A DNA stretch of 64,000 nt from the NCBI RefSeq assembly GCF_020544405.1, contig NZ_CP065410.1:2728001-2792000 (forward strand), read 5' to 3'. The translations under genes and the position numbers were made by a program. The notes under the pieces are model-generated. The model was not told where the DNA came from and made no database searches. It saw nothing but the letters and a program-made list of their open reading frames with translations. This DNA is from Pseudomonas sp. IAC-BECa141. Its GTDB lineage: Bacteria > Pseudomonadota > Gammaproteobacteria > Pseudomonadales > Pseudomonadaceae. Each line of letters starts with the position of its first letter. The stretch's first letter is position 1. Shown piece after piece: positions 312 to 16,825 of this stretch.

Positions 312-3300
312 ATGATCCAGCGATTACCAACGGCTGCGACGGCGATGAATGAAGGCATGCAGATGCTGTGGGACGACGCAGAACGCATTCTCCTGCGGGG
401 CAGACGTGCTTCTGGCGGTCATGAGGTTGATGTCCTGATCGCCTCGCTCGCTACGGAGCAACCTTCGGGCGCTAGCGTCGAGCGGCTTGCCCATGAGTTT
501 TCCCTGAAAGACCAGTTGGAGAGCGACTGGGCTGCCCGTCCCCTTGAGTTGTTGCATGACGAGGGCCGCCTGCAGCTGGTGCTCGAAGACCCGGGCGGCG
601 TGCCGCTGGCCCGTTTGCTGACGGCACCCCTGGACGTTGCGACGTTTCTGCCGCTGGCCATCAGCGTGGCGGTTGCACTGGGCAAGTTGCATCGACGTGG
701 CCTGATTCACAAAGACATCAAGCCCGCTCACCTTCTGGTGAACTGCCCCGATGGGCACGCCCGACTCACCGGCTTCGGCCTCGCATCGCGTCTGCCCCGG
801 GAACGGCAGCCCGCGGAACCGCCAGAAACGTTGTCCGGGACTCTGGCCTATATGGCCCCGGAACAGACGGGCCGGATGAACCGCTTGGTGGATTCGCGCA
901 GCGACCTCTATGCCTTCGGCGTCACGCTCTATCAAATGCTCACCGGGTCGCTGCCGTTCAGCGCTGCCGATCCGATGGAATGGCTGCATTGCCATATCGC
1001 GCGTACGCCGATGTCGCCGAATGCGCGCGTGGCGACGGTGCCCGAGATGCTGTCGCGAATCGTCATGAAGCTGCTGGCCAAGACCGCCGAGGAGCGCTAT
1101 CAGTCTGCGCTTGGCGTCGAGCAGGATCTGCGCCGTTGTCTGGCAGGCTGGCACCTGCAGAATATGGACGAGTTTGCGCTGGACGAGCAGGGGACGTGCG
1201 ACCGTTTGCTGATCCCCGAAAAGCTCTACGGCCGAGAGCCCGAAGTCCAGACGCTGATTGCCGCGTTCGAACGGATTGCCGTCAGCCACCGACCGGAGCT
1301 GGTGCTGGTTTGCGGCTATTCGGGCATCGGTAAATCCTCGGTGGTCCACGAGCTGCATCAAACCCTGGTGCCGGTGCGCGGGTTGTTTGCCAGCGGAAAG
1401 TTCGACCAGTACAAACGCGACGTACCTTATTCGACTCTGGCCCAAGCGTTCCAAGGGCTGGTGCGCACGCTTCTGGGCCAGAGCGATTCGCAAATGGCCG
1501 AGTGGCGCAACGCGCTGCGGCAAGCGCTGGGCGCCGAGGCGCGGCTGGTGAGCGACCTGATTCCGGAGCTGAAACTGATCATCGGCGATACGCCGCCGAT
1601 AGCGGACCTGGAGCCGCCACAGGCGCAACGCCGGTTCTTGCAGGTATTGCGACGGTTTATCGGCGTGTTTGCCCGCGCCGAACATCCACTTGTGCTGTTT
1701 CTGGATGATTTGCAATGGCTGGATGTCGCGACACTCAATTGGCTGGAGGAACTGCTGACGCATTCCCACTTGCAGCACTTGATGCTGATCGGCGCTTACC
1801 GCAGCAATGAGGTGGATGCCTCGCATCCGTTGACCACCCGGTTGAGCGCCATCAAAGCGGCTGGGGGGCGGGTACATCAGATCACCCTGTTGCCGCTGGC
1901 CCGATCGCACATCGAGCAGTTGATCGCCGAGTCATCGCGCTCCGAGCCGTCGTACATCGCGCCGCTCGCGCAGCTGATTCTGGACAAGACGCAGGGCAAT
2001 CCTTTCTTCGTCATTCAGTTCCTGCAAACCCTGGTCGAACAGGATCTGCTGACTTTCGATCATGACCGCCGGCAATGGGTCTGGGACGCACAGCGCATAC
2101 ACACCAGGGGCTACACCGACAATGTGGTCGACCTGATGCTCGACAAGATGGCACGGCTGCCCGCTGAAACGCAGCAGGCGTTGCAGCAACTGGCGTGCCT
2201 GGGCAACCTCGCCGATGTCGCCTCCCTGTCTACCGTTCTGGACTTGCCTGTCGCAGAGGTTCACGGGGTGTTGTGGCCGGCGGTTCGTCATGAATTGATC
2301 ACGCGTCAGGACAGCACTTATGGGTTTGTTCACGATCGGGTCCAGGAAGCGGCGTATCTGCTGATTGATGAGGCTGCCCGTGCGCAGCATCACCTGCGGA
2401 TCGGACGTTCGCTGGTGGAGAAGACGCCGGCAGACAAGCATGCAGAAAAGATTTTCGAGATGGTCGGCCAACTCAATCGAGGTGCCGCGCTGATGAATCG
2501 ACAACAGGAGCGCGAACACCTGTCGCAATTGAACCTGCTGGCGGGCGAACGGGCCAGAGCGTCAACGGCCTATGCTTCGGCGCTGACGTACTTCGCCCAG
2601 GGCGCAGCGCTGCTGGGCGAGGGCGGCTGGGAACATCAGCGTGAGTTGATGTTTGCGCTGGAGTCCGGCCGGGCCTTTTGCGAATTCCTTACCCGCCAGT
2701 TGGGGAGCGCCGAAGCGCGTCTGCGGCAATTGTCACGCCGTGCGCTGACGCTGATCGAACGCACCCGGGTCGCCTGCCTGCAAGCGGATCTCTACCTGGT
2801 TCTGAATCAGAGCGACAACGCGGTGACGGTCTGCCTGGCTTTCCTGCGTTATCTGGGGATCGAGTGGTCGCCTCATCCCGATGACGACGAGGTGCGTGAC
2901 GAATACCGGCAGATCGGGCAAAGGCTCGGCGAGCGTCCTATCGAAGCATTGATCGATCTGCCGCCCATGGTGGATGAAACCGCGCTTGCCACTCTTGAAG
3001 CCCTGACCAAGCTGATCGTTGCTGCGGTCCATATGGACGGCAATCTTCCGGGCCTGGCCATGTGCCGGGCGATCAATCTGAGCATTGAATACGGCAACAG
3101 CGATGCTTCGTGCGTGGCCTATGCCAACGTGTCGCGGATCGCCGGGCGGCGGTTCGCGGACTATCCGGCCGGCGTGGCGTTCGCCGAGCTGGGCTGTCGA
3201 CTGGTCGAACGGCGCGATCTGGAACGCTATCAGGCACGTACGCAACTGGCGTTCTGGTTGTTTGCCAAACGCTGGGCTCAACCGATACGAACCTGCCTTG

Positions 3301-5483
3301 AGCCTTTGGCCCGTATATTTGAAGTGGCGAACCGCACTGGTGATCTGCCGATTGCCGCGTTCACCGGCAACAGCCGGGTCTCCAACCTGTTGGCCACCGG
3401 CGAACCCCTGGCCGAATTGCATGAGGAGGCCGAGCGCGGGTTGGCTTACGCCAGAAAAATCGGGTTCGGCGTGGTCATCGACTTCATCGAAACGCAGTTG
3501 GCGTTTATCCGGATGCTCCGGGGCCAGACGCCAACTTTCGGCAGCATCGGCCCGGGCGCATTTGCCGAGCGCCACTGCGAGGATCACCAGACCTCATTGG
3601 TTGCCATTTGCTGGCACTGGATTCGCACCTTGCAGGCCTGTTATTTCGCCGGCCACTACGAAGCAGCGGCAGAGGCCGGCGCCGCCGCTCGACAATTGCT
3701 CAGGTCATCGCACTCGTTTCTTGAGGAAGCCGAATATTGCTTCTACCAGGCCTTGACCCTCGCTGCCCTGTGCAGCACCAGGCCCGCCGGTGAACGGCAG
3801 GCGCAACTCGACGTCATCACCGCGCAACACCGGCAATTGCAGGTCTGGGCCGAACTCTGCCCGGACAATTTCGCCAGCCACGCCGCATTGCTGGCGGGTG
3901 AAATTGCCCGTCTGGAGGGCCGGCTGCCAGAGGCCGAGCATTGCTTCGAACACGCAATCGAATCAGCTCAGCGCAGCGGCTTCCTGCATATCGAAGCGCT
4001 GGCCAACGAGCTCGCCGCGCGTTTCTATGAAAACCGCGGGCTGCACAAGATTGCCCGGGTCTATCTTCAGGATGCGCGCTACGGCTATCAGCGCTGGGGC
4101 GCCGAGGGCAAAGTGCGACAACTGGAAGCCGAGCACACGTTCCTGCGGGTCGAAAAACCGCTGCCCGGTCCCACCAGTACCATCGCCACGCCGGTGGAGC
4201 ACCTGGACCTTGCGACCGTGTTAAAGGTGTCGCAAGCGGCCTCCAGTGAAATCGTCCTCGAAAAGCTGATCGACATGATCATGCGCACCGCAATCGAACA
4301 GGCCGGCGCGCAGCGTGGCGTGCTGATCCTGACGGAGCAGGGCGAGCAGCGGATCGTCGCCGAGGCGATCACTCGTGACGACGCGACGCAACTGGATCTG
4401 CGCGATGCGCCGGTGGCTGCGAGGCTGTTGCCGGAGTCGGTCCTGAACCAGGTGCTGCGCACTCAGGAAAACCTGGTACTGGATGATGCCTTGGCCGAAC
4501 CATCGTTCGCGGCCGACCCGTATGTTCGCCAGCATCGCGTGCGCTCGGTACTCTGCCTGCCGTTGCTCAATCAGGCGAAACTGATCGGCGTGCTGTATCT
4601 GGAAAACAACCTGACTTCGAGGGTGTTCAGCCCCTCACGGATCGCCTCGCTGAGGCTGATCGCCTCACAGGCGGCGATCTCGCTGGTCAATGCACGCCTG
4701 TACCGCGATGTCGCCGAGCGCGAGGTCAAAAGCCGCGAAAGCGAGCAGCGTTATCGCGAGATACAGGCTGAGCTGGCCCATGCCTGCCGCGTCGCGACCA
4801 TGGGGCAACTCGCGGCCTCGATTGCCCATGAAGTCAGCCAGCCGCTGGCCTCGACACTCGCCAGCGCCCAGGCAGCGCTGCGCTGGTCGGGTGCGGCGCC
4901 ACCGAACCTCGAAGAAACCCGCCTGTGCCTGGAGCGGATCGTCAGGGATGCCCATCGGGGCAGTGAGGTGCTGGATCGTATTCGCGGGCTGATTCGCAAG
5001 GCCCCTCAGCCAAAGGAGCCGGTCAACCTCAATGAGGTGATTGGCGAAGTCATCGAGATCACCCGGAGCCAGGCGCAGAAGGCCGGGGTTTCGGTCGAGG
5101 CGCAGATGGCGGCCAGTTTGCCACGGGTCGATGGCGACCGGGTCGAGCTGCAGCAAGTGGTGCTCAATCTGGTGATGAACGCACTGGAAGCCATGAGCGG
5201 TGCAGGTATCGTCAAAGGAGAGCTGCGCATCCGCACGCAAGCCAATGAAGCGGAGCAGGTGTGGGTGTGTGTCAGCGATTCGGGGCCGGGGTTCGGCGCG
5301 CATTCGATCGGGCAGCTGTTTACACCGTTTTACACCACCAAACCCACGGGGCTGGGCATGGGGCTGTCGATCTGCCGTTCGATCATCGAGACCCATGGCG
5401 GTCAATTGTGGATCGAGGCCAATCAGCCGTGCGGTGCCGTCGTGCAGTTTGTCTTGCCGGCCGATCCCGTTCTGCTTCCGTGA
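312..5483 (+). CDS. Trifunctional Ser/Thr-kinase-like / AAA ATPase / GAF / sensor histidine kinase
   Basis: This 1723-residue cytoplasmic fusion protein has, in order, a Ser/Thr-kinase-like domain (about 1-280, HKDIKPAHLL near 135), an AAA-16/STAND-type ATPase (Walker A GYSGIGKSS near 335, Walker B LVLFLDDLQWLD), a long helical repeat region, a GAF domain (about 1310-1460), a HisKA helix with the phospho-acceptor in IAHEVSQP (about 1506) and a HATPase domain (LVMNALEAM, DSGPGFG, TGLGMGLSICRS). The family is known from proteobacteria, usually as an unusual input kinase for FixJ-type regulators. The kinase lobe lacks the VAIK lysine (VLIAS) and the DFG aspartate (TGFGLA), so it may be a pseudokinase. 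The ATG at 312 has a weak ribosome site. ATGs at 345 and 357 (the latter after GAAGG) are alternatives. The likely partner is the FixJ-type regulator at 13514-14161. Confidence 0.9.
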   Translation: MIQRLPTAATAMNEGMQMLWDDAERILLRGRRASGGHEVDVLIASLATEQPSGASVERLAHEFSLKDQLESDWAARPLELLHDEGRLQLVLEDPGGVPLARLLTAPLDVATFLPLAISVAVALGKLHRRGLIHKDIKPAHLLVNCPDGHARLTGFGLASRLPRERQPAEPPETLSGTLAYMAPEQTGRMNRLVDSRSDLYAFGVTLYQMLTGSLPFSAADPMEWLHCHIARTPMSPNARVATVPEMLSRIVMKLLAKTAEERYQSALGVEQDLRRCLAGWHLQNMDEFALDEQGTCDRLLIPEKLYGREPEVQTLIAAFERIAVSHRPELVLVCGYSGIGKSSVVHELHQTLVPVRGLFASGKFDQYKRDVPYSTLAQAFQGLVRTLLGQSDSQMAEWRNALRQALGAEARLVSDLIPELKLIIGDTPPIADLEPPQAQRRFLQVLRRFIGVFARAEHPLVLFLDDLQWLDVATLNWLEELLTHSHLQHLMLIGAYRSNEVDASHPLTTRLSAIKAAGGRVHQITLLPLARSHIEQLIAESSRSEPSYIAPLAQLILDKTQGNPFFVIQFLQTLVEQDLLTFDHDRRQWVWDAQRIHTRGYTDNVVDLMLDKMARLPAETQQALQQLACLGNLADVASLSTVLDLPVAEVHGVLWPAVRHELITRQDSTYGFVHDRVQEAAYLLIDEAARAQHHLRIGRSLVEKTPADKHAEKIFEMVGQLNRGAALMNRQQEREHLSQLNLLAGERARASTAYASALTYFAQGAALLGEGGWEHQRELMFALESGRAFCEFLTRQLGSAEARLRQLSRRALTLIERTRVACLQADLYLVLNQSDNAVTVCLAFLRYLGIEWSPHPDDDEVRDEYRQIGQRLGERPIEALIDLPPMVDETALATLEALTKLIVAAVHMDGNLPGLAMCRAINLSIEYGNSDASCVAYANVSRIAGRRFADYPAGVAFAELGCRLVERRDLERYQARTQLAFWLFAKRWAQPIRTCLEPLARIFEVANRTGDLPIAAFTGNSRVSNLLATGEPLAELHEEAERGLAYARKIGFGVVIDFIETQLAFIRMLRGQTPTFGSIGPGAFAERHCEDHQTSLVAICWHWIRTLQACYFAGHYEAAAEAGAAARQLLRSSHSFLEEAEYCFYQALTLAALCSTRPAGERQAQLDVITAQHRQLQVWAELCPDNFASHAALLAGEIARLEGRLPEAEHCFEHAIESAQRSGFLHIEALANELAARFYENRGLHKIARVYLQDARYGYQRWGAEGKVRQLEAEHTFLRVEKPLPGPTSTIATPVEHLDLATVLKVSQAASSEIVLEKLIDMIMRTAIEQAGAQRGVLILTEQGEQRIVAEAITRDDATQLDLRDAPVAARLLPESVLNQVLRTQENLVLDDALAEPSFAADPYVRQHRVRSVLCLPLLNQAKLIGVLYLENNLTSRVFSPSRIASLRLIASQAAISLVNARLYRDVAEREVKSRESEQRYREIQAELAHACRVATMGQLAASIAHEVSQPLASTLASAQAALRWSGAAPPNLEETRLCLERIVRDAHRGSEVLDRIRGLIRKAPQPKEPVNLNEVIGEVIEITRSQAQKAGVSVEAQMAASLPRVDGDRVELQQVVLNLVMNALEAMSGAGIVKGELRIRTQANEAEQVWVCVSDSGPGFGAHSIGQLFTPFYTTKPTGLGMGLSICRSIIETHGGQLWIEANQPCGAVVQFVLPADPVLLP

Positions 5484-5490
5484 GCAGAAA

Positions 5491-5524
5491 AAAAGCGCCC
5501 GCCAAAAAAAACCGTGGCGGGCGC
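5491..5524 (-). terminator. Terminator of the flavoprotein gene
   Basis: A 10-bp stem (GCGCCCGCCA with TGGCGGGCGC) is followed on the minus strand by a T-run. It lies between the convergent kinase and oxidoreductase genes and can serve both. Confidence 0.75.
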
Positions 5525-5568
5525 CTGGGAATGCGCGCAGCAGTAGAGAAGGGTCAAGCGTCGCGGGA

Positions 5569-6771
5569 TCAGGCCACCGGAATCAACGGGTCGGCAGCGG
5601 CCAGTGCGGTTGCACGATCGGCGGCCGGCGGGTAGATCCAAACGGTATTGATCTGAGTCTTGAGGTCTTTGGCTTCTTGCCCGACCAGTTTCAATTGACG
5701 GTCCCAGCCCTCGGTGAACACGGCGCCCCAGGCGCCGAGGTCAAGGCAGGTCACGTACTTGGGCTGGCTGTAGGTCATCGGCGCGACACCGATCAGGTCA
5801 GCCGCCACATTGTTGCCGGCATAACGGCCCAGGCTGATCGCATGCTGGCAGGACATCGCGGCGTAGTTTCCGAGATCATCCGTGGCGGCATAAGCGACGT
5901 CGCCGGCAGCGAAGACATCCACATGCCCCAGCACTTTCAGGTTGCCGTCGACGTGCAGGCGCCCTTGCGGATCACGGCTGCCCGGCACCTGTTCGGTGAG
6001 CGGGCTGGCGCGGAAACCAACGGTCCAGACGACGGTGCTGGATTCGATACGTTGGCCGTCGGCCAGGGTCACGCCGCCGGCATCGACCGAGGCGACCGAG
6101 GCGTCGACTATCCATTCGATGCCCAGCTCCCTGGAAGCTTCCACGATGGAAGGGCGAATGCCTTCACCCAACGTCGCGGCGATTTGCGGCGAACGATCCA
6201 CTACGATGACTCTGATCGGCGCATCGTCACCCAGAGCGGCACGCAGGCGGGCGGGCATTTCGGTGGCGGTTTCGATCCCGGTAAAACCACCACCGGCGAC
6301 CACCACGGTATTTCGCGCAGCGCTCGACGGCTGGTTCTTCAAGGATTTGATATGGGCTTCGAGGCGGGCGGCTTCTTCTATCTGGTCGACATCGAAAGCG
6401 TGTTCGATCATGCCTTTGAGCGGTGGGCGAATCACGCGACTGCCGGCGGCCAATACCAGCCGGTCATAGCTCAGCTTGCCTTGCGCGCCGAAGGCATCGC
6501 TGTAGGTCACCTGCTTGCTTTGGGTGTCGATGTTGTCGGCGATGCCTTTGACGAATCTCACGCCGACCGCATCGAACAGCTCACCCAGCGGCGCCTTCAT
6601 GTTGTGGACGTCCGGCTCGTAGAAGCGTGGGCGGATACGCAGTTCTGCCTGGGGCGCCAGGACGGTGATCTGCACGTCGTTACGATCATGCTGGTCCAGC
6701 AGTCGTGCGGCGCTCAAGGCGCTCCAGACTCCACCAAATCCTGCGCCTATCACTAAAATGTGCTGTTTCAT
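5569..6771 (-). CDS. NAD(P)/FAD-dependent oxidoreductase (NDH-2-like)
   Basis: The 400-residue protein starts with the FAD-binding Rossmann signature ILVIGAGFGGVWSA. It has a second dinucleotide motif, VVVAGGGFTGIETA, near residue 160, and the late AAGDVA segment that contacts FAD. This is the layout of type II NADH:quinone oxidoreductases and related pyridine nucleotide-disulphide oxidoreductases, which pass electrons from NAD(P)H to quinones or small acceptors. No membrane anchor is obvious. The start at 6771 is preceded by AGGAG. A TATAC-N4-GTATA palindrome lies 196 bp upstream, so the gene probably belongs to the local regulon. The true substrate is unknown. Confidence 0.85.
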   Translation of the reverse strand: MKQHILVIGAGFGGVWSALSAARLLDQHDRNDVQITVLAPQAELRIRPRFYEPDVHNMKAPLGELFDAVGVRFVKGIADNIDTQSKQVTYSDAFGAQGKLSYDRLVLAAGSRVIRPPLKGMIEHAFDVDQIEEAARLEAHIKSLKNQPSSAARNTVVVAGGGFTGIETATEMPARLRAALGDDAPIRVIVVDRSPQIAATLGEGIRPSIVEASRELGIEWIVDASVASVDAGGVTLADGQRIESSTVVWTVGFRASPLTEQVPGSRDPQGRLHVDGNLKVLGHVDVFAAGDVAYAATDDLGNYAAMSCQHAISLGRYAGNNVAADLIGVAPMTYSQPKYVTCLDLGAWGAVFTEGWDRQLKLVGQEAKDLKTQINTVWIYPPAADRATALAAADPLIPVA

Positions 6772-6966
6772 CGGATGACTCCTGAGAAATTCTGATCGTT
6801 GAACGACTTGACTGTTCACGCGTGACCGTCTCCCGGTCTGCACGAAGCAGGTTGTTGTGAGCAACCGCAGAACCGGTTCGATTCGCTGGAGAAAATGCTA
6901 TCGAGGAAGGCGCGGCGGAACACTTCTACATAGGGTCAGCGCCGACATGCTTAGGTGTGAGGCGGG

Positions 6967-6980
6967 TATACACAGGTATA
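6967..6980. promoter_or_regulatory. Palindrome TATAC-N4-GTATA, copy 1
   Basis: A perfect inverted repeat (spacer ACAG) upstream of the oxidoreductase gene and just past the stop of the REC-only regulator. It is one of five copies of the same motif in 3.4 kb. Confidence 0.6.
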
Positions 6981-6992
6981 GGAAGAGGGCAT

Positions 6993-7367
6993 TCAAACGG
7001 TGCGATTGAACGCGCTTTCGATGCAGGTGATGAGTTCGCCGCAGGGAAAGGGTTTCGGGAAGTAGGCGAGCGGCTCGGGAAATGCTGCGTTGACCTTTGG
7101 CGGTGGGCCCTGGTAGCCAGTGATGAAAATGATCGGGATGCGCAGGCCTCGGGCGCACAGTGCGTCGTACATCTGGATGCCAGACAGTCCGGGCATCTGG
7201 ATATCCGAGATGATGCAGCCGGGGCGGGGCGGTGCGGTCATCGCCAGAAAAGCCTCGGCGTTCGGGTACAGCCGCACGCTGTAGCCGTGAGAGCGCAAAA
7301 GGCTGTCCAGCGCCATGCGCACGGATTCATCATCATCGACAACCGAAACAACAGCGGTGTGGGACAT
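6993..7367 (-). CDS. REC-only response regulator, copy 1
   Basis: A single receiver domain of 124 residues. The acidic pocket (SVVDDDES), the phospho-acceptor aspartate in ISDIQMPG and the conserved lysine in YFPKPF are all present. There is no output domain, so the protein probably acts as a phosphate sink, shuttle or protein-protein switch for the neighbouring histidine kinases. It is clearly paralogous to the regulator at 9897-10271. The ATG at 7367 was chosen because the receiver fold begins right there; the upstream extension is not receiver-like. A TATAC-N4-GTATA palindrome lies 85 bp upstream of the start. Confidence 0.85.
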   Translation of the reverse strand: MSHTAVVSVVDDDESVRMALDSLLRSHGYSVRLYPNAEAFLAMTAPPRPGCIISDIQMPGLSGIQMYDALCARGLRIPIIFITGYQGPPPKVNAAFPEPLAYFPKPFPCGELITCIESAFNRTV

Positions 7368-7451
7368 TGCTTTACCAGGGCTGATCTCGGGTAGCCCGTC
7401 GAGGACGCCCGCCATTGCCGCACGATACGCCGCTCGATCCGGCGGCGTACT

Positions 7452-7465
7452 TATACGTGTGTATA
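7452..7465. promoter_or_regulatory. Palindrome TATAC-N4-GTATA, copy 2
   Basis: A perfect inverted repeat (spacer GTGT), 85 bp upstream of the start codon of the REC-only regulator at 6993-7367. Confidence 0.6.
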
Positions 7466-7515
7466 GCGACAGTATTTGAACGCCTGCGAGCCCGATGCCC
7501 TTGCGGTGTGTGGCG

Positions 7516-8535
7516 TCAGCGCGAGAACCGGCTGCGGTATTCCCGAGGCGAGACCGAGAGATGACGGTAGAAGGTGTCGCGCATGCGTTCTTCGTCGCCG
7601 AACCCGCACAACTGCGCGATCTGGTCGATGTTGCGCTGGGAGTCTTCGAGCATCCGTCGCGCCGCTTCCAGGCGAAACAGCTCAAGCGCCTTCGCCGGTG
7701 TGCGACCGGTCTTGCGTTTGTAGACCCGAGCGAAATTGCGCGGGCTCATCTGTGCCTGTCGGGCCAGGGTTTCGACGTTCAGGCCCGTGTCGCCGAGGTT
7801 TTCGCTGATCCACAGGTGCAGTTCGTCGAAGCCGCCGCGGTCGTCGATCTGCGATTGCAGCAACTGGCTGAACTGCGCCTGACCGCCGGGCCGCTTGAGA
7901 AAAACCACCAGCTCCCGCGCGACCTGTAGAGCTATGGCCCTGCCGCAATCGGCTTCGACCAGTGCCAGCGCCATGTCGATTCCGGTGGTGACCCCGGCGG
8001 AAGTCCAGACCTTGCCTTGCTGGATGTAGATCGCATCAAGGTCGACATCGACACTGGGAAAACCACCCTTGAGCATGTCGCACATCCCCCAGTGGGTGGT
8101 CGCGCGCAACCCTTCCAGCAGCCCGGCCTGGGCCAGCAGAAAGGTGCCGCTGCACACCGAGGCGGTGCGTCCCGCCTTAACCGACGCCGCGCGCAACCAG
8201 TCCACCAGCGCAACGTTGTCGAGCATGGCCTGCCGGATGTTCGGTGCACCGGGCACGATCAGGGTATCTATCGCGGTTTCGTCAAAGGTGTTCAGTGGGA
8301 CGGTGTTGACCGCCAGCCCTTCGGCGGTGGCGATCAATCCGCCGGCGAGGCTTGCGGTGTGCATCGCGTAGCCAGGCAGGCCGCGTTCGGCCCTGGCTTT
8401 GGACGCTGCCCAGAACACGGTCTGTGCGCCGGTCAGGTCCAGCAAGCCCATTTGCGGATAGGCCAGGAACACCAGCGTGCGCGGCTGCGCGAGCAGACAG
8501 GTGAGTGGGTCGGGGTGATGAAAAATTGAGTTCAT
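7516..8535 (-). CDS. GlxA-family regulator: DJ-1/PfpI domain plus AraC-type HTH
   Basis: The 339-residue protein has an N-terminal DJ-1/PfpI (glutamine-amidotransferase-like) domain of about 190 residues with the nucleophile-elbow cysteine in ASVCSGTF. A C-terminal AraC/XylS DNA-binding domain follows (about 240-335, two HTH units, ending in FYRHLSVSPREYRSRF). GlxA-type regulators such as GbdR, CdhR and ArgR control catabolic genes, with the DJ-1 fold binding a small molecule. The ATG at 8535 is used because the longer frame adds a non-conserved leader. A TATAC-N4-GTATG palindrome lies 83 bp upstream. It is closely paralogous to 10938-11648. Confidence 0.88.
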   Translation of the reverse strand: MNSIFHHPDPLTCLLAQPRTLVFLAYPQMGLLDLTGAQTVFWAASKARAERGLPGYAMHTASLAGGLIATAEGLAVNTVPLNTFDETAIDTLIVPGAPNIRQAMLDNVALVDWLRAASVKAGRTASVCSGTFLLAQAGLLEGLRATTHWGMCDMLKGGFPSVDVDLDAIYIQQGKVWTSAGVTTGIDMALALVEADCGRAIALQVARELVVFLKRPGGQAQFSQLLQSQIDDRGGFDELHLWISENLGDTGLNVETLARQAQMSPRNFARVYKRKTGRTPAKALELFRLEAARRMLEDSQRNIDQIAQLCGFGDEERMRDTFYRHLSVSPREYRSRFSR

Positions 8536-8617
8536 GACGGCTTTGAGGGCTTGGTGACCGCCAGTTTTCGACGATCCGGTGTGCCCTAGTGTCCGCGTTT
8601 GCGGGCGCCAGCGCGAA

Positions 8618-8631
8618 TATACATTGGTATG
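8618..8631. promoter_or_regulatory. Palindrome TATAC-N4-GTATG, copy 3
   Basis: The inverted repeat (spacer ATTG, one arm mismatch) lies 83 bp upstream of the GlxA-type gene, in the divergent interval shared with the metallo-hydrolase gene. Confidence 0.6.
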
Positions 8632-8682
8632 GGACGCAGCCACTTCAGCGCCGGCCGTACTCGCTCGATCCGGCGCAATCCC

Positions 8683-8696
8683 TATACCCGCGTATG
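8683..8696. promoter_or_regulatory. Palindrome TATAC-N4-GTATG, copy 4
   Basis: The inverted repeat (spacer CCGC) lies about 106 bp upstream of the metallo-hydrolase start and 52 bp from copy 3, so the divergent promoter region carries two sites. Confidence 0.6.
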
Positions 8697-8801
8697 GTAT
8701 TGGTCGTCAGGGTCGCGATGCACACTCGCTTTTAAGGAGCTTTATGCCGCTCTTGCGGCATTGCTCCGAGCAATTTCGACTCAGCCAACAGGAAAGCGAC
8801 C

Positions 8802-9752
8802 ATGTCTACCTATCTGAATCACTCCCAACAAACCCACTCAGCCACCAGCCTGCCATTCACCTCGAATTTCGGCCAGGCTCAGGAGCTGGTGCCTTCGCGC
8901 TACGCACTGCAGGTCGGCGACATCGACGTGGTGGTGATCAGCGATGGCGTCCTGCCGCTGCCGACCTCGACCATGTCGACCAATGCTGACCCGCAGGCTC
9001 GCGCCGCCTGGTTCAAGGACATGTTTCTGGGGCCGGACGCGTTCGACTGGGCACTCAACGTGCTGGTGGTGCGCAGCGGCGAGCAGATCATCCTGGTCGA
9101 CGCCGGACTGGGCGGGCAGTTTCCTGGCTTTCCCCGGGCCGGCCAGCTGCCGAAACGGCTGGAAGCGGCCGGCATTGATCTGGCAGCCGTGACCGACATC
9201 GTGATCACGCACATGCACATGGACCATGTCGGCGGCCTGCTGGTCGACGAAGTGAAGAGCCGGCTGCGTCCGGATGTGCGGATCCATGTTTCAGCGAAAG
9301 AAGTCGAGTTCTGGGAAACTCCGGACTTCACTCAGACCGAGATGCCGGCGCCGGTGCCTGACGTTCTGCGCGCGACAGCCAATCAGTTCATCAACGATTA
9401 CCGGAGCCGGGTGCGCACTTTCGACGATGAATACGAGGTGGCGCCGGGCGTGGTGGTGAAGCTGACCGGTGGGCATACGCCGGGCCACAGCATTGTTTAC
9501 GTCAACTCCGGCGGTGAACGCCTGACCTTTGCCGGCGATGCCTTGTTTCCGGTGGCCTTCGAACACCCGGAATGGCACAACGGCTTCGAGCATGACCCTG
9601 AAGAATCGGTGCGGGTGCGCGTGCGTCTGATGCGCGAGGCGGCGGCGAGCGGTGAGTGGTTTGTCGCCACGCACCTGCCGTTCCCTTCGGTGGGCCGAGT
9701 AGCGGTCGATGGTGACGCGTTCCGCTGGATTGCAGCGTTCTGGGATTACTGA
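8802..9752 (+). CDS. Metallo-beta-lactamase-fold hydrolase
   Basis: A protein of 316 residues with the zinc-binding motif THMHMDHVGG (HxHxDH), a later histidine in TGGHTPGHS, the aspartate in FAGDALFP and a final histidine in VATHLPFPS. That is the full ligand set of the binuclear metallo-beta-lactamase superfamily. Relatives include quorum-quenching lactonases, PqsE-like and sulphatase-type enzymes. No export signal is seen, although the first 30 residues are low-complexity and polar. It is divergent from the GlxA-type gene and shares its palindrome pair, which suggests joint control. The substrate cannot be read from the sequence. The ATG at 8802 follows CAGGAAAGCGACC. Confidence 0.85.
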   Translation: MSTYLNHSQQTHSATSLPFTSNFGQAQELVPSRYALQVGDIDVVVISDGVLPLPTSTMSTNADPQARAAWFKDMFLGPDAFDWALNVLVVRSGEQIILVDAGLGGQFPGFPRAGQLPKRLEAAGIDLAAVTDIVITHMHMDHVGGLLVDEVKSRLRPDVRIHVSAKEVEFWETPDFTQTEMPAPVPDVLRATANQFINDYRSRVRTFDDEYEVAPGVVVKLTGGHTPGHSIVYVNSGGERLTFAGDALFPVAFEHPEWHNGFEHDPEESVRVRVRLMREAAASGEWFVATHLPFPSVGRVAVDGDAFRWIAAFWDY

Positions 9753-9800
9753 TCGGCTGTCGGCGGCCCGGCTGCATTCGGCCGGCCTCGCTAAAAATCA

Positions 9801-9837
9801 GGCCCCGCAAGTGATGAGCTTGCGGGGCCTTTTTTTG
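9801..9837 (+). terminator. Rho-independent terminator after the metallo-hydrolase
   Basis: The stem GGCCCCGCAAG pairs with CTTGCGGGGCC around a 7-nt loop, followed by seven T residues. It separates the hydrolase from the convergent REC-only regulator. Confidence 0.9.
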
Positions 9838-9896
9838 CTTTGAGGTTTATCGAACGGGCAGCGGCAGCTCTGCATCGCCTTGTTCGAGGGGGCCGC

Positions 9897-10271
9897 TCAA
9901 CGTCGGCGCATCAGGGCCTGTTCGATGCAGGCCAGCAGTGCGTCGGTATGGAACGGTTTGGAGAAATAGCCCTCGGGCGTCTTCACACGGCTGCTGAACT
10001 CAGGGGGCAGGCCCGGCTTGCCGGTGATGAAGATAGTCGGAATGTGGATCTTCCTGGCCGCCAGCGCCTCGTACATTTCGACCCCGCACATGCCGGGCAT
10101 CTGAATGTCGGAGATCAGGCACCCGGTCTGCTCTGGCGCGCTTGATTCAAGAAAAGCAAACGCGCTGGTGAACGTCTTGACTGTATAACCGCAAGACCGC
10201 AACAAGCTGTCCAGTGAAACCAGAACAAGTTCGTCATCATCGACAACTGAAATAATAGCTGAGTTGAACAT
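9897..10271 (-). CDS. REC-only response regulator, copy 2
   Basis: A stand-alone receiver domain of 124 residues, with ISVVDDDE, phospho-acceptor aspartate in ISDIQMPG and lysine in YFSKPF. It has the same length and framework as the regulator at 6993-7367, so the two arose by duplication. With no output domain it probably works by interaction or phosphate buffering. A TATAC-N4-GTATG palindrome lies 79 bp upstream of the ATG at 10271, almost the same spacing as for copy 1. Candidate phospho-donors nearby are the histidine kinases at 312 and 11694. Confidence 0.85.
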   Translation of the reverse strand: MFNSAIISVVDDDELVLVSLDSLLRSCGYTVKTFTSAFAFLESSAPEQTGCLISDIQMPGMCGVEMYEALAARKIHIPTIFITGKPGLPPEFSSRVKTPEGYFSKPFHTDALLACIEQALMRRR

Positions 10272-10349
10272 GGGGAAACCTTGCGTCTTTGCGGGTGGCT
10301 GTAGCGCCCGCCATACTTGCAAGATACGCCTTCAAAAGTTGTGGAATAG

Positions 10350-10363
10350 TATACGTGGGTATG
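10350..10363. promoter_or_regulatory. Palindrome TATAC-N4-GTATG, copy 5
   Basis: The inverted repeat (spacer GTGG, one arm mismatch) lies 79 bp upstream of the second REC-only regulator. Confidence 0.6.
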
Positions 10364-10397
10364 TTTGGTCGGTTTTTTTGTTAGTTGCGACAGTTAA

Positions 10398-10922
10398 TTA
10401 ATGTTCAGCAAACAAGTGGTTGTTGATTAACGAAAGAAAGTAACCGTTATGCCGAATGCAGGCTTCAAAAAGTTGTCGGCTGGCGTAGTCGTTATTGGCA
10501 ATTGCACTGGCGCGACAGTCGCGGAACAAGGCGTCGGCGGCCCCGAGCCGGCGTATGGAGCGATCAATGCCTTTCAGGCAGTCGGCGAAACACAACGGTT
10601 CTGCCGCGTCATTGAGGCGGTATAGCGCGTCACGCTGGGCATGGCCACCCAGATCCGTGATGCCGGTGACGAGAAAGTCGGCGTATCGGGTATTGGCATT
10701 CAGCAACCTGCGCAACAGTGTCTGCACCGGTAAGAAACTGACGGTGCGCAATGTCTGCTGGCTGTGTTTGAGTCGCGCCAGAATATTCAGCGTAGCGCCA
10801 AGAGTCTGCGTCAACGCGTCGATGATCTCCACGCGCTCAGCGGTGCATAGCGATGTGTGCGTGCCGTAGCGGCTGACGCAGGGCGGGTGACTGACCAGGA
10901 GCAGTTTGTGCGGTGCGTTCAT
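10398..10922 (-). CDS. Dps-like ferritin-fold protein, probably without ferroxidase activity
   Basis: This 174-residue all-helical protein lines up with Dps over the first two helices: a shared arginine and phenylalanine around TLRTVSF and the LGG turn in TDLGGHAQ. A C-terminal helix pair ends in YFLSLINNHL. Dps proteins sequester and oxidise iron and coat DNA. In my alignment the ferroxidase ligands are mostly replaced (both histidines by Gln, the following Asp by Arg, the Glu by Thr; one Asp is kept), so iron oxidation seems unlikely. The ATG at 10922 has GGAG upstream. Nine to fifteen bp separate it from the DJ-1 gene, giving an operon with the histidine kinase. The family call is tentative. 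Confidence 0.55.
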   Translation of the reverse strand: MNAPHKLLLVSHPPCVSRYGTHTSLCTAERVEIIDALTQTLGATLNILARLKHSQQTLRTVSFLPVQTLLRRLLNANTRYADFLVTGITDLGGHAQRDALYRLNDAAEPLCFADCLKGIDRSIRRLGAADALFRDCRASAIANNDYASRQLFEACIRHNGYFLSLINNHLFAEH

Positions 10923-10937
10923 GACCACCGTCTCCAG

Positions 10938-11648
10938 CTAGCGCTCGAGCGCGATTGAATGTTGTGAGTGCAACAGCGGACTCCACTGTTCCTGGTTGTC
11001 CGGGCGCCGGTAGTAAACGACCATGCGCCGGGCGACCTGCATGGCCACATCACGGCCGTTGTCGGCCTCGACCAGTGCCAGTGCAAGATCGATTCCCGCG
11101 CTGACCCCGGCCGAAGTCCACACCGATGCCTGGCGAACGAAGATGGCTTCGCGATCCAGTTCGACCTTGGGAAACAGCCGCTCGAACGTGTCAGCCATCA
11201 GCCAGTGTGTCGCCACGCGCAGGCCGTCGAGCAGTCCCGCCTGAGCCAGGAAAAATGCGCCGCTGCATACCGACGTTGTACGGCTGGCCGTGGCTGACGT
11301 GACGCGCAACCAGTCCACCAGCGGCGCGTTGTCGAGCATGGCCTGGCGAATGGATGCCGAGCCCGGAACGATCAGCGTATTGATCGGCTCGCCGCTTAGC
11401 TCATCCAGCCGCCGGGTTTGCACCACCAGGCCTTCGCCGGTCTGCACCGGCCCGCCATGCAGGCTTGCGGTGTGCAAGGCGTAACCGGGCAAGCCGAGTT
11501 GCGCCAGTCTGCAGCTTGCCGCCCATAAGACGGTCTGGGCACCGGTCAGATCCAGCAGGCCCATTTGCGGATACGCCACGAAAACCACGGTTCGTTCTCG
11601 TACCGGATTTTCGGATTCAGGGTCGGGGGTTGTGCGTTGAGTAGACAA
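10938..11648 (-). CDS. DJ-1/PfpI-family protein, GlxA-like but lacking the HTH domain
   Basis: The 236 residues match the N-terminal half of the GlxA-type regulator at 7516-8535 almost throughout (for example AYPQMGLLDLTGAQTV and RQAMLDN), including the nucleophile cysteine in TSVCSGAF. The protein stops soon after the end of that domain, with no AraC-type HTH. It could be a ligand sensor, a hetero-oligomerisation partner of the full regulator, or an enzyme of the isonitrile-hydratase type, which has this domain alone. The start is a TTG at 11648 with GGAG seven bases upstream. It follows the histidine kinase gene by 45 bp and precedes the Dps-like gene, so the three look co-transcribed. Confidence 0.82.
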   Translation of the reverse strand: MSTQRTTPDPESENPVRERTVVFVAYPQMGLLDLTGAQTVLWAASCRLAQLGLPGYALHTASLHGGPVQTGEGLVVQTRRLDELSGEPINTLIVPGSASIRQAMLDNAPLVDWLRVTSATASRTTSVCSGAFFLAQAGLLDGLRVATHWLMADTFERLFPKVELDREAIFVRQASVWTSAGVSAGIDLALALVEADNGRDVAMQVARRMVVYYRRPDNQEQWSPLLHSQHSIALER

Positions 11649-11693
11649 TGCGAATCTCCATATCGCCTGCCGGCGACGTCAGGGGGATGACGG

Positions 11694-13154
11694 TCATTGA
11701 TCGTGTTCGGGCGCCGCCAACGGAATTGCAAATACGAACTGCGTACCGACGCCCTCGGTACTGTTGACCCAGATGCGCCCGCCGTGGAATTCAATGATCG
11801 ACCGGCAAATGGAGAGGCCCATTCCGAGGCCGGTCGGTTTGGTCGTGAAGAACGGGTCGAACAGCGAAGGCAGGATGTCTGCGGCAATGCCGACGCCGGA
11901 ATCGGCGATTTCAAGCACAGCCTCGTTGTGCAAAATCGAGGTGTTGATCCGTAGCGTCCGGGCTCGTTCTTGCACGTTGGCCATGGCCTGGCAGGCGTTG
12001 ATGATCAGATTGATGATGACTTGCTGCAGTTGCACACGATCGCCTTTGATCAGGGCGCCGCGAGTGCCCAGTTGTGCGTGCGGGCGAACCTCGTGAAAGC
12101 AGATGTCGTGTTGCATCAGCGTCAGCGAGTCACTGACGATCTCGTCAAACACTTCGACATTGCGCTGCACCTCGCTGTGGCGCGACAAGGCCCGGATACA
12201 GGCGATGACGTCGGAGACCCTGACCGAGTTTTGAATGATCCGGTCCAGCGAACGGCGTGCTTCTTCCAGATTGGGCTCGGGACGGTTGATCCAGCGTTTG
12301 CAGGATTCGCCGCTGGTAATGACCGCTGCCAGCGGCTGATTGATTTCGTGGGCGATGGAGGCTGCCAGTTCGCCCATGGAGGTCAGGCGTGTGACGTGGG
12401 CGAGGGTGGCTTGCGAGTGAAACAGCGCCTCTTCGGACTGTTTGCTGGCGGTGACTTCCATCAGCGCGCCGGCGTATTGCGTGCGCCCGCGATGCTTGGG
12501 CAAAGGGCTGGCGATCATCTGCACATGCTTGATCCGACCATCCGGCATGACCAGTCGATGCTCGGCTTCGATGAGCTCCTGGCGGCGCGCAAATTGGTCC
12601 AGCACCTGATCGATCACCGGTAGATCATCGGGATGGGTGCGTGACTTGACCAGGGCGAGAGTCGGAGTGACGTTCGGTGGGTACTCGAAAATGCGTGAGG
12701 ATTCTTCCGACCAGGACAAGGACACGCTGACCTTTTTATCGATGATGAAACCGATGCTGCCGGTGTGGCTGAGTTTCTGTGCGCCGAGAAAGAAGGCTTC
12801 CTTGCGCCGCAACGTTTCAGTGGCGCGTTTACTGCGTAGCGCCAACAGGGAAATGGTCGTCAGCGCGATCACGCACCTGACGAATCCGGCGATGCTTCTG
12901 TGATCGCGATAGCCTTGGTCGATCAGGAAGTCGGCCGTCAGGAGCGTGAGGCAACCCAGCGCAACGGCCAGGAATACCGGAACCGGGAAGATGTTCGCGG
13001 ACATGAACACCAGCGTGATATAGAACAACGTCGGCGCAACGTCCAGATCAAGGTAAGCGTTGGTGATATAGATCATGCTGCCGACTGCAATGGCGGCAAG
13101 CCAGGCGAAGGCGTCTGAGCAAAGAAGTTGTGCGCGACGTTTGATGATAGACAT
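11694..13154 (-). CDS. Membrane PAS sensor histidine kinase
   Basis: The 486-residue protein opens with about four hydrophobic helices (residues 12-105) and then has a PAS domain (about 120-235, HTGSIGF and later DGRIKHVQM). It continues with a HisKA helix carrying the phospho-histidine in IAHEINQPLAAV and a HATPase domain (INLIINACQAM, IADSGVGI, TGLGMGLSICRS). The transmitter closely resembles that of the fusion kinase at 312-5483, including the NQPLA/SQPLA motif typical of FixL/DctB-like kinases that pair with FixJ-type regulators. Such a regulator lies 359 bp upstream on the same strand. The signal is unknown. The ATG at 13154 immediately precedes the first membrane segment. Confidence 0.88.
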   Translation of the reverse strand: MSIIKRRAQLLCSDAFAWLAAIAVGSMIYITNAYLDLDVAPTLFYITLVFMSANIFPVPVFLAVALGCLTLLTADFLIDQGYRDHRSIAGFVRCVIALTTISLLALRSKRATETLRRKEAFFLGAQKLSHTGSIGFIIDKKVSVSLSWSEESSRIFEYPPNVTPTLALVKSRTHPDDLPVIDQVLDQFARRQELIEAEHRLVMPDGRIKHVQMIASPLPKHRGRTQYAGALMEVTASKQSEEALFHSQATLAHVTRLTSMGELAASIAHEINQPLAAVITSGESCKRWINRPEPNLEEARRSLDRIIQNSVRVSDVIACIRALSRHSEVQRNVEVFDEIVSDSLTLMQHDICFHEVRPHAQLGTRGALIKGDRVQLQQVIINLIINACQAMANVQERARTLRINTSILHNEAVLEIADSGVGIAADILPSLFDPFFTTKPTGLGMGLSICRSIIEFHGGRIWVNSTEGVGTQFVFAIPLAAPEHDQ

Positions 13155-13513
13155 TTATTCTTCCAGATTTTTGCTATCGGACGGCAGGTCGTGTTCTCTC
13201 GATGAAACAGGCAAATGCTATGAAGGGCGTATTAATGAAGAGGTTGAAAAGTCTGAACTTGTTTTTCAGGCATGACCGTTGTTGGCGACTGTCTGTCATT
13301 CACCAATCGTTGTATTGATTAATATTGATTTGAATAAAGATGTTATTCGAAGAGTTATTCTCTGGCATCGCTGCATTGGGTCAATCGAAGTATGACTACG
13401 TATGAACGGGATATACCTAAGTGTTAGTTGTGCCGAGTCTTTCGATGCCTTGCCTGATGGCACAAACATGCGCCATCCCGGCCCCTTGAGCCGTCCCGTT
13501 CTGGTTCATGTGG
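13155..13513. other. Intergenic region between FixJ-type regulator and sensor kinase
   Basis: These 359 bp hold no gene I can support. The AT-rich stretch 13310-13420 may contain the kinase promoter. A lone TATAC at about 13412 resembles one arm of the local palindrome but the other arm is absent. Confidence 0.4.
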
Positions 13514-14161
13514 TCACCGATTGACAGGCTGCGCCGCGATGACCTCGGCCATGCGCACCAGATCGGCAAATGAGCGCGCGCCCATCTTGCGCATGGCCTG
13601 GCCTCGGTGGATTTTCACGGTGATTTCGCTGAGGCCGATCTCCCCGGCGATCTGCTTGTTCATCAGGCCTGAGGCTGCCAGCGCCATGACCGTCTGCTCA
13701 CGGGGTGTCAGCGTCCCGTGGCGCGCGCGCAGTTCATCGGCATGTCGCCCGGATTCGCGACGTTGCCTGTCTCGCGAATGTGCGGCGCAGACAGCATCGA
13801 TCAGGTCCTGCTCGCGAAACGGTTTGGTCAGGAAGTCCACCGCGCCGGCTTTCATGGCGCGCACGGTCATGGCGATATCGCCGTGCCCGGTGATGAACAC
13901 GATCGGCACGTTGATGCCGGTAGCGGCCAGTTCATTCTGGAAATCCAGCCCGCTGCTGCCTTGCAGGCGCACGTCGAGTACCAGACAACTGACGGTGTCG
14001 GGACGTTGATGTTTCATGAACTCGGCGACCGAACCGAACAGTTCGACTTTAAGGCCAATGGAGCGCAACAGGCTGCCGAGGGATTCACGCAGCGCTGCAT
14101 CGTCGTCGACGATGAATACCACTGGCTCGCTGGGGTTATTGCTGATGGGATTGTTGTTCAT
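13514..14161 (-). CDS. FixJ-type response regulator (REC plus LuxR HTH)
   Basis: A two-domain regulator of 215 residues. The receiver has VFIVDDDAAL, the phospho-acceptor in LVLDVRLQG and the lysine in FLTKPFRE. A LuxR/FixJ HTH follows (about 145-205, LTPREQTVMALAASG and NKQIAGEIGLSEITVKIHR). This architecture activates promoters as a phosphorylated dimer at short palindromes. It is the only complete DNA-binding response regulator in the signalling island and lies upstream of the sensor kinase on the same strand. That makes it the best candidate to read the TATAC-N4-GTAT palindromes, which is inference. The ATG at 14161 starts a non-conserved 10-residue leader. Confidence 0.9.
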   Translation of the reverse strand: MNNNPISNNPSEPVVFIVDDDAALRESLGSLLRSIGLKVELFGSVAEFMKHQRPDTVSCLVLDVRLQGSSGLDFQNELAATGINVPIVFITGHGDIAMTVRAMKAGAVDFLTKPFREQDLIDAVCAAHSRDRQRRESGRHADELRARHGTLTPREQTVMALAASGLMNKQIAGEIGLSEITVKIHRGQAMRKMGARSFADLVRMAEVIAAQPVNR

Positions 14162-14577
14162 TGCTTTTTTCCCAAGAGGTTGTGACGTTGTGGAGCTTGT
14201 CGTGGTATCGGCGAAGCCCCATCAAAAATATGCCTATCCCTCGGCCCGGGTACCTGTGTTTGCTCTTTCGAGTGTATGCCCGACCAAAGACACGGTCACG
14301 CCGCAGGTTTGGGCGGGGAGCAGATAAACGGTTCAGCATCGTAGAGGGGCAACACTCCGTCAGCTAGGACAAAAAACCCGAAAAAACGGCCATCGCAGCG
14401 GTCTATTCGCAGCCCGATGCAGCTATCAGGTTCAAACGGTTCATACGCAAGTATCAATTCACTCACCTAACGCATGATCTCGCTGTCCCCAAGTACCACA
14501 GACGCCCGGCAGGCACGCCCTTAACCTTTACCTGCTCTCCGTCGATCTCAATGGCCGCGTGCCGGGTGGTGAACTTC
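14162..14577. other. Intergenic region between FixJ-type regulator and LysR pseudogene
   Basis: About 415 bp with no gene I can support. Short frames on both strands have no recognisable protein features. It presumably holds the divergent promoters for the regulator at 14161 and the LysR gene at 14578. No TATAC palindrome is present. Confidence 0.4.
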
Positions 14578-15551
14578 ATGAACAGAAATGATCTCCGTCG
14601 TGTCGACATCCATCTGCTGGTGGTCTTCGAGACGCTGATGCATGAGCGCAATGTCAGCCGGGTCGGCGAGAAGCTGTTTCTCGGCCAACCGACCATCAGT
14701 GCGGCGCTTGGGCGTTTGCGCGTGCTTTTCGACGATCCCTTGTTCGTGCGCGCGGGAGGGTGATGGAGCCGACTGCACGGGCCGAGGAAATTTTCGCCAA
14801 TCTGACGCCGGCGCTGGATGGCGTGGTCGCGGCGTTGAGCCGTTGCCAGCCGTTTGATCCGGGCACCAGCGAAGCGACCTTTCAGGTTGGCCTGTCCGAC
14901 GATGTCGAATACGCGCTTCTTCCTCGACTGTTACGCCAGCTTCGTATCGAGGCGCCGAACATTGCATTGGTGGTGCTGCGGGTCAATGAGCAGCAGATGG
15001 CGCAGCGGCTGTTCAATGGCGAGATCGCTCTGGGGATCAGCCCTACGCTCGATCTGCCAGCCAACGCGCGACGCAAGAGTCTGCGATTGATCCGGCCGAT
15101 GCTTTTGCGCTCGGACACTCGGCCGGGCATGCTGGCACTCGATGAATTCTGCGAGCGACCGCATGCCATCGTGTCGTCCATGGGCAAGGTCAAGGATGAC
15201 ACCGACCATGCCCTGGATCTGCTGGGGCGTCGGCGCAAAGTGGTGCTGGCGGTGCCGCAGTTCAGCGCCTTGCCAAGACTGTTGGCGCAAAGCGACATGC
15301 TGGTCATCGTGCCGGATTATGTGGCGAAGGCCATGGCCTCCGTGGAGGATATCAGGGCCGAACCGGCCCCTCTGTTACTGCCATCGCGGGAGCTTTCCAT
15401 GGTCTGGCGCGCGGCTGCGCACAACGATTGTGCTCAACGTTGGCTGCGTTCGCGTTGCCAGGCGTTTTTTGGCACACCGCTTGAGTTGCAGGTAGTGCCC
15501 AGGTTGCGCCAGGCGTTGCCCCTCGATCAGACGTTGACGATCGCCCGGTAG
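14578..15551 (+). pseudogene. LysR-family regulator split by a frameshift
   Basis: The first piece (14578-14763) encodes a standard LysR HTH, from MNRNDLRRVDIHLLVVFETL to DDPLFVRAGG, and stops at TGA 14761-14763. The second piece (from 14760 in another frame) continues directly with MEPTARAEEIFANL, the normal next segment of this NodD/LysR subgroup, and runs through the effector domain to 15551. One missing base near 14758-14762 explains the break. Together the pieces give about 324 residues, the usual size. Either the gene is dead or the base was lost in sequencing. ATGA overlap could allow re-initiation, but an HTH-less half would not regulate. Confidence 0.75.
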
Positions 15552-15582
15552 GAAATGGCAATGGCTGTGTCAATCGCCCAAT

Positions 15583-15617
15583 AAAAAAGCTCCGACTGGG
15601 TCGGAGCTTTTCTTTTT
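15583..15617. terminator. Bidirectional terminator
   Basis: The stem AAGCTCCGAC with GTCGGAGCTT is flanked by an A-run on the left and a T-run on the right. It sits between the LysR pseudogene and the convergent hydrolase gene. Confidence 0.85.
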
Positions 15618-15661
15618 AGAGGGTCGTACGTGATTTGTCGTGAGGACGCGGCCCCGGAACA

Positions 15662-16648: not shown

Positions 16649-16825
16649 CCATTGAGTTGTTTAAGTCGCACAGGCGGCAAGGGCTGCTGCCTTGGCCGAA
16701 GGCAATCTTTGGGCAAAGGAGAGCCGCTGAAAACCAGACATGGGTTTTCGAAATTAACGCTTTGGTATGTAGGGCGTGGCGGGAGGAATCCTGGCGGGGT
16801 TGGCGCGTCCCTGCGCCAGAACAAG

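Follow-up and report, generated by a model that had tools for sequence, protein, structure and literature searches.

Comparison with described systems

Two described systems come closest to the locus treated here, which lies in a stretch of 64,000 nucleotides of Pseudomonas sp. IAC-BECa141 (contig NZ_CP065410.1, positions 2,728,001 to 2,792,000, forward strand; hereafter the window) and combines a palindrome, TATAC-N4-GTAT(A/G), with a FixJ-type response regulator and two genes for stand-alone receiver domains. StyR and TodT, of the NarL/FixJ family, belong to styrene and toluene catabolism in Pseudomonas; the available parts of the sources describe an operator ATAAAC-N4-GTTTAT for StyR-like proteins, contacted by K175, V176 and H179 (PMC5874301), and a high-affinity StyR site at about -40 (PMC2442086). 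In the FixL-FixJ-FixT system of Caulobacter and Sinorhizobium, FixT is a single-domain receiver of the microaerobic FixL-FixJ regulon and inhibits the autophosphorylation of FixL; such receivers generally work through protein-protein contacts (both points from the accessible part of PMC7078487). For the locus in the window it is probable that the phosphorylated StyR-like FixJ-type regulator binds the palindrome and activates promoters, and that the receiver-only product limits the response. The genes concerned are as follows.

13514-14161, minus strand: FixJ-type response regulator, StyR-like, the proposed binder (receiver domain, REC, and GerE helix-turn-helix, HTH; PF00072 and PF00196 above cut-off)
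6993-7367, minus strand: REC-only gene 1 (single receiver domain, Pfam)
9897-10271, minus strand: REC-only gene 2 (Pfam)
11694-13154, minus strand: PAS-domain histidine kinase (PAS_3, HisKA, HATPase_c)
312-5483, plus strand: large kinase (Ser/Thr-kinase domain, AAA, GAF, HisKA, HATPase_c; Pfam)
5569-6771, minus strand: NDH-2-like FAD (flavin adenine dinucleotide) oxidoreductase (PF07992)
7516-8535, minus strand: GlxA-type AraC regulator (DJ-1/PfpI and HTH_18, Pfam)
8802-9752, plus strand: MBL-fold hydrolase, resembling methyl parathion hydrolase and lactonases, under NCBIfam cut-offs

The window regulator has the N-terminal receiver and C-terminal GerE/LuxR-type HTH of the NarL/FixJ family, and its closest solved structure by sequence is that of StyR (1yio). 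It shares with StyR and TodT this domain composition and an N4 palindrome, and the position of -42.5 predicted below for the receiver-only promoters is near the -40 of the high-affinity StyR site. The proposed arms, TATAC and GTAT(A/G), differ from those of the StyR/TodT operator, with N4 kept, and the KVHRH of StyR reads KIHRG here: K175 is kept, V176 is replaced by I and H179 by G. The residues K, I and G, together with different arms at a constant N4, look like a sister specificity outside the StyR operator group. Also unlike StyR/TodT, the target set is centred on a receiver-only gene, and a Pfam scan of the ten window proteins around the regulator revealed no aromatic-degradation enzyme.

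With 185.8 bits the regulator stays under the cut-off of 255 of the NCBIfam FixJ equivalog NF006900. FixL is the best NCBIfam match of both window kinases, far below its own cut-off. By eye, the operator differs from the published FixJ motifs (GTAMGTAG class, TAAGTAATTTCCCTTA), as far as these are cited in the accessible text of PMC4999443. A point of likeness to FixL-FixJ-FixT is a single-domain receiver within the regulon, a place that the receiver-only genes would have here; a difference is that here the receiver gene itself carries the proposed operator. The two window REC-only proteins are FixT-like in having a single receiver domain with phospho-receiver residues, and no DNA-binding domain was found in them by the Pfam scan. 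A comparison of 128 distinct receiver-only proteins, of which 93 have a site upstream and 35 do not (identical proteins were counted once, as in the regulator tree), shows the acidic pair, the phospho-Asp and the Lys to be conserved; within the 93, conservation reaches at least 95% at D11, D13, D55 and K105. These proteins can presumably be phosphorylated. Past the conserved T they are degenerate in comparison with the regulator's own receiver, and the four-cysteine motif given for Caulobacter FixT in the available part of PMC7078487 is absent, only C51 being at least 95% conserved.

The proposed operator motif and its sites

Five exact sites were located in the window:

6967-6980: TATACACAGGTATA, perfect repeat, near edge 195 bp upstream of the NDH-2-like gene
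7452-7465: TATACGTGTGTATA, perfect repeat, near edge 84 bp upstream of REC-only gene 1
8618-8631: TATACATTGGTATG, one arm mismatch, near edge 82 bp upstream of the GlxA-type gene
8683-8696: TATACCCGCGTATG, one arm mismatch, near edge 105 bp upstream of the MBL-fold hydrolase gene
10350-10363: TATACGTGGGTATG (minus strand CATACCCACGTATA), one arm mismatch, 78 bp upstream of REC-only gene 2

The initial annotation had listed these five copies, with two perfect repeats, three one-arm mismatches and no further exact copy in the window; all of this was confirmed, as were its distances to the start codons, which were read by hand and vary with the choice of start. The sites of the GlxA-type and MBL genes are also kept in the four nearest relatives (L083-L086).

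A scan of the whole genome (6.22 Mb) with TATAC-N4-GTAT(A/G) found 7 sites, with 0 for the reversed pattern, and 5 of the 7 fall in a single 3.4-kb part of the window. The sixth is found 39 bp after the stop of another FixJ-type gene (about 75% identity with the one in the window), and 6 of the 7 are near FixJ-type genes of one clade. The seventh, at 724800, is 65 bp ahead of an open reading frame (ORF) of 1316 aa and 106 bp ahead of one that resembles prmA; no link of this site to the system was found. The wider pattern (T/C first, A/G last) adds a single genomic place, 518094, away from the system. The compact regulon proposed in the initial annotation is supported on comparative grounds, except that it is not confined to the cluster, given the site beside the second paralogue. 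A third FixJ-type paralogue (51-52% identity, recognition helix VKAHRGK) has a single one-mismatch site about 5 kb off, which was not counted.

Sites with one mismatch are in no excess genome-wide over the control (36 forward and 26 reverse versus 38 and 28), so that the signal resides in the exact form; one-mismatch sites were rejected as additional regulon members, their frequency being no higher than in the control. When up to two mismatches were allowed, the window contained 11 matches, exceeding all 100 dinucleotide shuffles (mean 3.5, largest 10). Two of the weak sites, both absent from the initial list, lie upstream of regulatory genes:

14442-14455: CATACGCAAGTATC, upstream of the FixJ-type gene, differing from the strict pattern at two positions
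13412-13425: TATACCTAAGTGTT, upstream of the PAS kinase gene, two mismatches

The former might conceivably serve autoregulation of the FixJ-type gene. An Rfam scan of positions 5000-17000 found no family.

Association of the motif with a clade of FixJ-type regulators

The independent test of this association started from the pattern: exact TATACN4GTATR sites were compared with the positions of FixJ-type genes in 59 Pseudomonas genomes, genes with at least 55% identity to the window regulator being taken as the clade. Of the 90 exact sites, 34 were no more than 12 kb away from one of the 20 clade genes, where 0.12 would be expected; 19 of the 20 clade genes had a site, versus none of 25 FixJ genes of lower identity (part of those listed). 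The remaining sites numbered 0.73 per genome in the 15 clade-bearing genomes and 1.02 in the 44 clade-less ones, indicating that the excess of sites is local.

The second approach started from the regulator, and every fetched locus therefore holds a FixJ-type gene by construction. The set comprised 140 loci among the matches listed from 398 genomes searched, plus L002; the clade was cut at a BLAST score of at least 215 bits to the window regulator, the genes of the loci were annotated by BLAST against the window genes, with LysR matches disregarded because the LysR reference had been translated out of frame, and the locus pattern allowed T/C and A/G at the ends. Sites were found by this wider pattern in 103 of 123 Pseudomonas clade loci (window excluded) and in 0 of 18 lower-scoring ones, and by the strict pattern in 97 of 123 and again 0 of 18. 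Left out were G375:C13:186161, G167:C135, G389:4559341, G134, two of G051, G155:C66 and G016:C14:122284, all below 194 bits, which is the range of the loci under the cut, but G389, a partial match at 58% identity, may belong to the clade. With the window included, sites occur in 40 of 42 loci with at least 73% identity, in 26 of 39 with 60-72% and in 38 of 43 below 60%. The spacing is strict, 164 sites having N4 and at most 5 any other spacing from 0 to 12, and permuted arms were found in at most 2 loci versus 64 for the true arms. A FastTree phylogeny of 202 distinct regulators needs 23 changes to account for which of them have a site, versus 53 when shuffled, a difference to which near-copies contribute.

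The motif is not peculiar to Pseudomonas, and the proposed regulon extends to alpha- and betaproteobacteria. Named genomes were scanned and the best 80 loci retained, at least 18 of which overlap loci of the other set. The regulator and the site were found together in Duganella, Massilia, Herbaspirillum, Paraburkholderia and Caballeronia, among others, and also in Ancylobacter, Azorhizobium, Hyphomicrobium and Kaistia. Sites of the wider pattern were present in 20 of 43 of the non-Pseudomonas alpha- and betaproteobacterial loci, and the strict pattern gave 22 sites in 16 loci. These loci have 28 sites at N4, a mean of 0.08 at other spacings and 0 for the reversed pattern; 8 of the 28 precede a receiver-only gene by 69-134 bp, another 8 precede a kinase gene, and 12 precede neither by annotation.

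Probable target genes and promoter layout

Targets were counted with the wider pattern in the Pseudomonas clade loci, window included. Three further genes of the cluster enter these counts:

10398-10928, minus strand: degenerate Dps/ferritin-like protein (weak match; no Pfam family over cut-off)
10938-11648, minus strand: DJ-1/PfpI protein, like the GlxA-type protein minus its HTH
15662-16648, minus strand: alpha/beta hydrolase with no site of its own

Receiver-only genes are the most constant targets, REC1-type genes having a site in 63 of 74 cases (71-92 bp upstream) and REC2-type genes in 9 of 11 (78-82 bp upstream). NDH2 genes have one in 16 of 46 cases (126-208 bp upstream) and Dps-like genes in 8 of 12, the Dps-like gene of the window itself lacking an exact site upstream. 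A full site precedes 5 of 60 PAS kinase genes, and more among other relatives, but 0 of 11 DJ-1 protein genes and 0 of 8 alpha/beta hydrolase genes. In reordered loci the motif is kept upstream of orthologues of the receiver-only genes and less often of the NDH-2 gene; the sites of the NDH-2, GlxA-type and MBL genes are less conserved than those of the receiver-only genes. So the receiver-only gene appears to be the core target and the enzymes appear lineage-specific. In the group below 60% identity 25 sites lie ahead of ABC-permease-like ORFs, which, in the loci read, start a row ABC permease-ATPase-kinase-FixJ; a site ahead of this row suggests autoregulation there.

The promoters of the receiver-only genes were compared in a non-redundant set of 46 (below 75% identity), aligned on the site, the arms being invariant by selection. 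Around the arms the spacer and flanks drift, a T-rich stretch follows the site, and a second block has the consensus GCGTATCTTG, the TATCTT of which begins 37 nt from the site start. An A stands at the predicted transcription start in 70% of these promoters. If TATCTT is the -10 element, the centre of the site is at -42.5, and the site replaces the -35 element. The corresponding hexamers in the window, assigned by hand, are as follows:

7422-7427, minus strand: TATCGT, at 38 nt from where the site starts, inferred -10-like hexamer of the promoter of REC-only 1
10321-10326, minus strand: TATCTT, inferred -10-like hexamer of the REC-only 2 promoter, which would put the site centre at -42.5

REC-only 2 thus fits the block exactly and REC-only 1 within one base. 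A scan of positions 6700-14700 with the sigma-70 consensus returned 1 promoter-like site versus 2.8 expected, and no -35/-10 pair at the receiver-only genes, a scarcity that is expected if the site takes the place of the -35 element. The NDH2 and Dps-like promoters have another downstream block, and the GlxA and MBL promoters have neither. The combined pattern of site and block had no match in the genome, since it was too strict, neither of the genome's own receiver-only promoters matching all its letters. The idea of a common alternative promoter at NDH2, CCTATGTAGAAGTGTT, was also tried and rejected: this sequence has one exact genomic copy, and its one-mismatch copies (8 versus 10 in the control) are in no excess.

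Proposed mechanism and alternative explanations

Sequence comparison yielded the sites and the way they cluster, besides the tie to the clade, the fixed position and the -10-like block, and from these we infer a scheme of signal, kinase partners, dimer, binding, activation and feedback. In this scheme the FixJ-type regulator would be phosphorylated by either or both of the cluster's histidine kinases, and would then bind the palindrome as a dimer and activate promoters whose -35 element is replaced by the site, with its centre at about -42.5 in the receiver-only genes. The stand-alone receiver, as the steadiest product, might accept phosphoryl groups from the same kinases or block them, curbing the response, and the NDH-2-like flavoprotein, the MBL hydrolase and the GlxA-type regulator would be lineage-specific outputs. 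The same feedback logic is proposed for the receiver-only proteins by analogy, from the precedent of FixT. The multi-input circuit that the initial annotation had in mind would be compatible with the genes present, which comprise two each of kinases, clade regulators and receivers. Both regulators could read the same sites, in which case the signals of several kinases would converge on one regulon under control of the brake.

Several observations weigh against this proposal. The clade cut was chosen after the list had been seen, and the lowest site-bearing locus scores 219 bits; raising the cut to 225 bits leaves 3 site-bearing loci among the 23 below it, raising it to 230 leaves 7 among 29, and lowering it to 200 leaves 0 among 15. 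No exact site was found within about 8 kb in 20 of the 123 clade loci, mostly of the 60-72% group, and the loci are related, some being the same record, so that their counts are not independent events. Eleven Bradyrhizobium relatives (L223, L224, L225, L227, L229, L237, L242, L244, L246, L250 and L264) with the nearly identical recognition helix AEITVKIHRG have no operator at their loci. The FixJ genes themselves are mostly siteless (5 of 128 with a site), and so, often, are the GlxA1 (4 of 37 with a site), MBL (5 of 19), NDH2 (16 of 46) and large-kinase-type genes (10 of 63), which are therefore not core targets; the NDH2, GlxA and MBL promoters also lack the -10-like block of the receiver-only genes. 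Finally, dyads derived from coding sequence rank high against a base-composition null, above TATAC-N4 in two identity subsets.

The last point raises the question whether the motif is no operator and simply comes along with coding or repeat sequence that is conserved, as coding-derived dyads do recur among related loci. The sites, however, precede different and reordered genes, with spacer and flanks drifting around the arms; hardly any sites have another spacing or permuted arms, and alpha- and betaproteobacteria have the motif as well, all of which makes this explanation hardly credible. The ranking of dyads by composition is by itself unconvincing, and chance or a coding artefact was rejected on the spacing and permutation controls. 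Binding by the GlxA-type AraC regulator, which the initial annotation named as the alternative to the FixJ-type protein, is very improbable as well. Its gene does lie inside the cluster, with a site 82 bp upstream that is shared by the four near relatives, but the motif occurs near clade FixJ genes in five genomes (G018, G021, G028, G050, G056) whose listed matches include no GlxA above 50% identity, and no motif lies near the closest GlxA orthologues (66-69%) in the clade-less G007, G025, G044 and G045. In the 60-72% and below-60% groups a GlxA1 orthologue is present in 1 of 39 and 10 of 43 loci, versus sites in 26 and 38, a tally made at the loci, with GlxA elsewhere in those genomes checked for some only. 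AraC proteins usually bind asymmetric sites, and the symmetric N4 dyad is unlike them. It is with the FixJ-type clade that the motif goes, in support of the FixJ-type regulator as the likeliest binder, as had been suggested.

A different role for the same binder deserves more weight, although it remains unlikely: the FixJ-type protein may mainly repress, and/or the receiver-only proteins may be outputs, acting as adaptors, and no brake. StyR represses when two sites are filled, according to the available part of PMC2442086, and the GlxA-MBL intergenic region here has two sites 65 bp apart; an adaptor role would agree with the protein-protein contacts through which single-domain receivers generally act (PMC7078487, accessible part). 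The receiver-only genes, on the other hand, have the layout of activated promoters, with a constant position of the site by the -10-like block and no sigma-70 -35/-10 pair, as expected if the FixJ-type regulator activates them.

The proposal supplies the regulator clade with a candidate operator together with its binder and its targets. If it is true, FixLJ-FixT would not be the only case of a FixJ-type regulator that appears to drive a stand-alone receiver, and feedback through receiver-only proteins may be a design that recurs. The change from KVHRH to KIHRG, with changed arms and a constant N4, offers a ready test of how the family reads DNA. The chances seem about even that the system is a portable, self-limiting module of alpha-, beta- and gammaproteobacteria, with its own operator and a receiver-only brake, in which enzyme outputs and kinases (PAS, Ser/Thr-kinase hybrid, or a small kinase beside an ABC transporter) were swapped between lineages. 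Full-text searches of the open-access literature, with subscription journals mostly outside their scope, found no description of the regulator clade and none of six spellings of the motif.

Neighbouring genes and further observations

The MBL hydrolase resembles the solved structures of MPH, OPH and lactonases in sequence, and its best NCBIfam match is AidB, at 125 bits far below the cut-off of 360. The DJ-1/PfpI protein (10938-11648) might act as a sensor on its own or else be a copy that has decayed. A LysR-type gene at 14578-15551 looks broken, its N-terminal HTH half and its C-terminal half being in different frames near 14760. The 14-mer TATACTGGGGTATA or its complement recurs in G006, G024, G025, G045, G051, G057 and G058, which are clade-less by the cut used, and is probably another conserved element. 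Near the second FixJ-type gene (L002:3838-4110) the minus strand seems to encode a short tandem peptide repeat (approximately AEGGSDRLIERRV, by eye).

In several relatives the PAS kinase gene adjoins the FixJ-type gene, and in others (e.g. L072, L076 and L078) the large kinase does so. In L080 (6668-13907) and similar loci the regulator ends a row ABC permease-ATPase (with an AAA-associated C-terminal domain)-kinase with an operator upstream, and this row is adjoined in L080 by a chemoreceptor whose sensor domain is of the HBM type. Copies of the alpha/beta hydrolase, with no operator of their own, recur at 57-70% identity next to the FixJ-type regulator in Massilia (L263), Ancylobacter (L232), Hyphomicrobium (L252) and Kaistia (L267).

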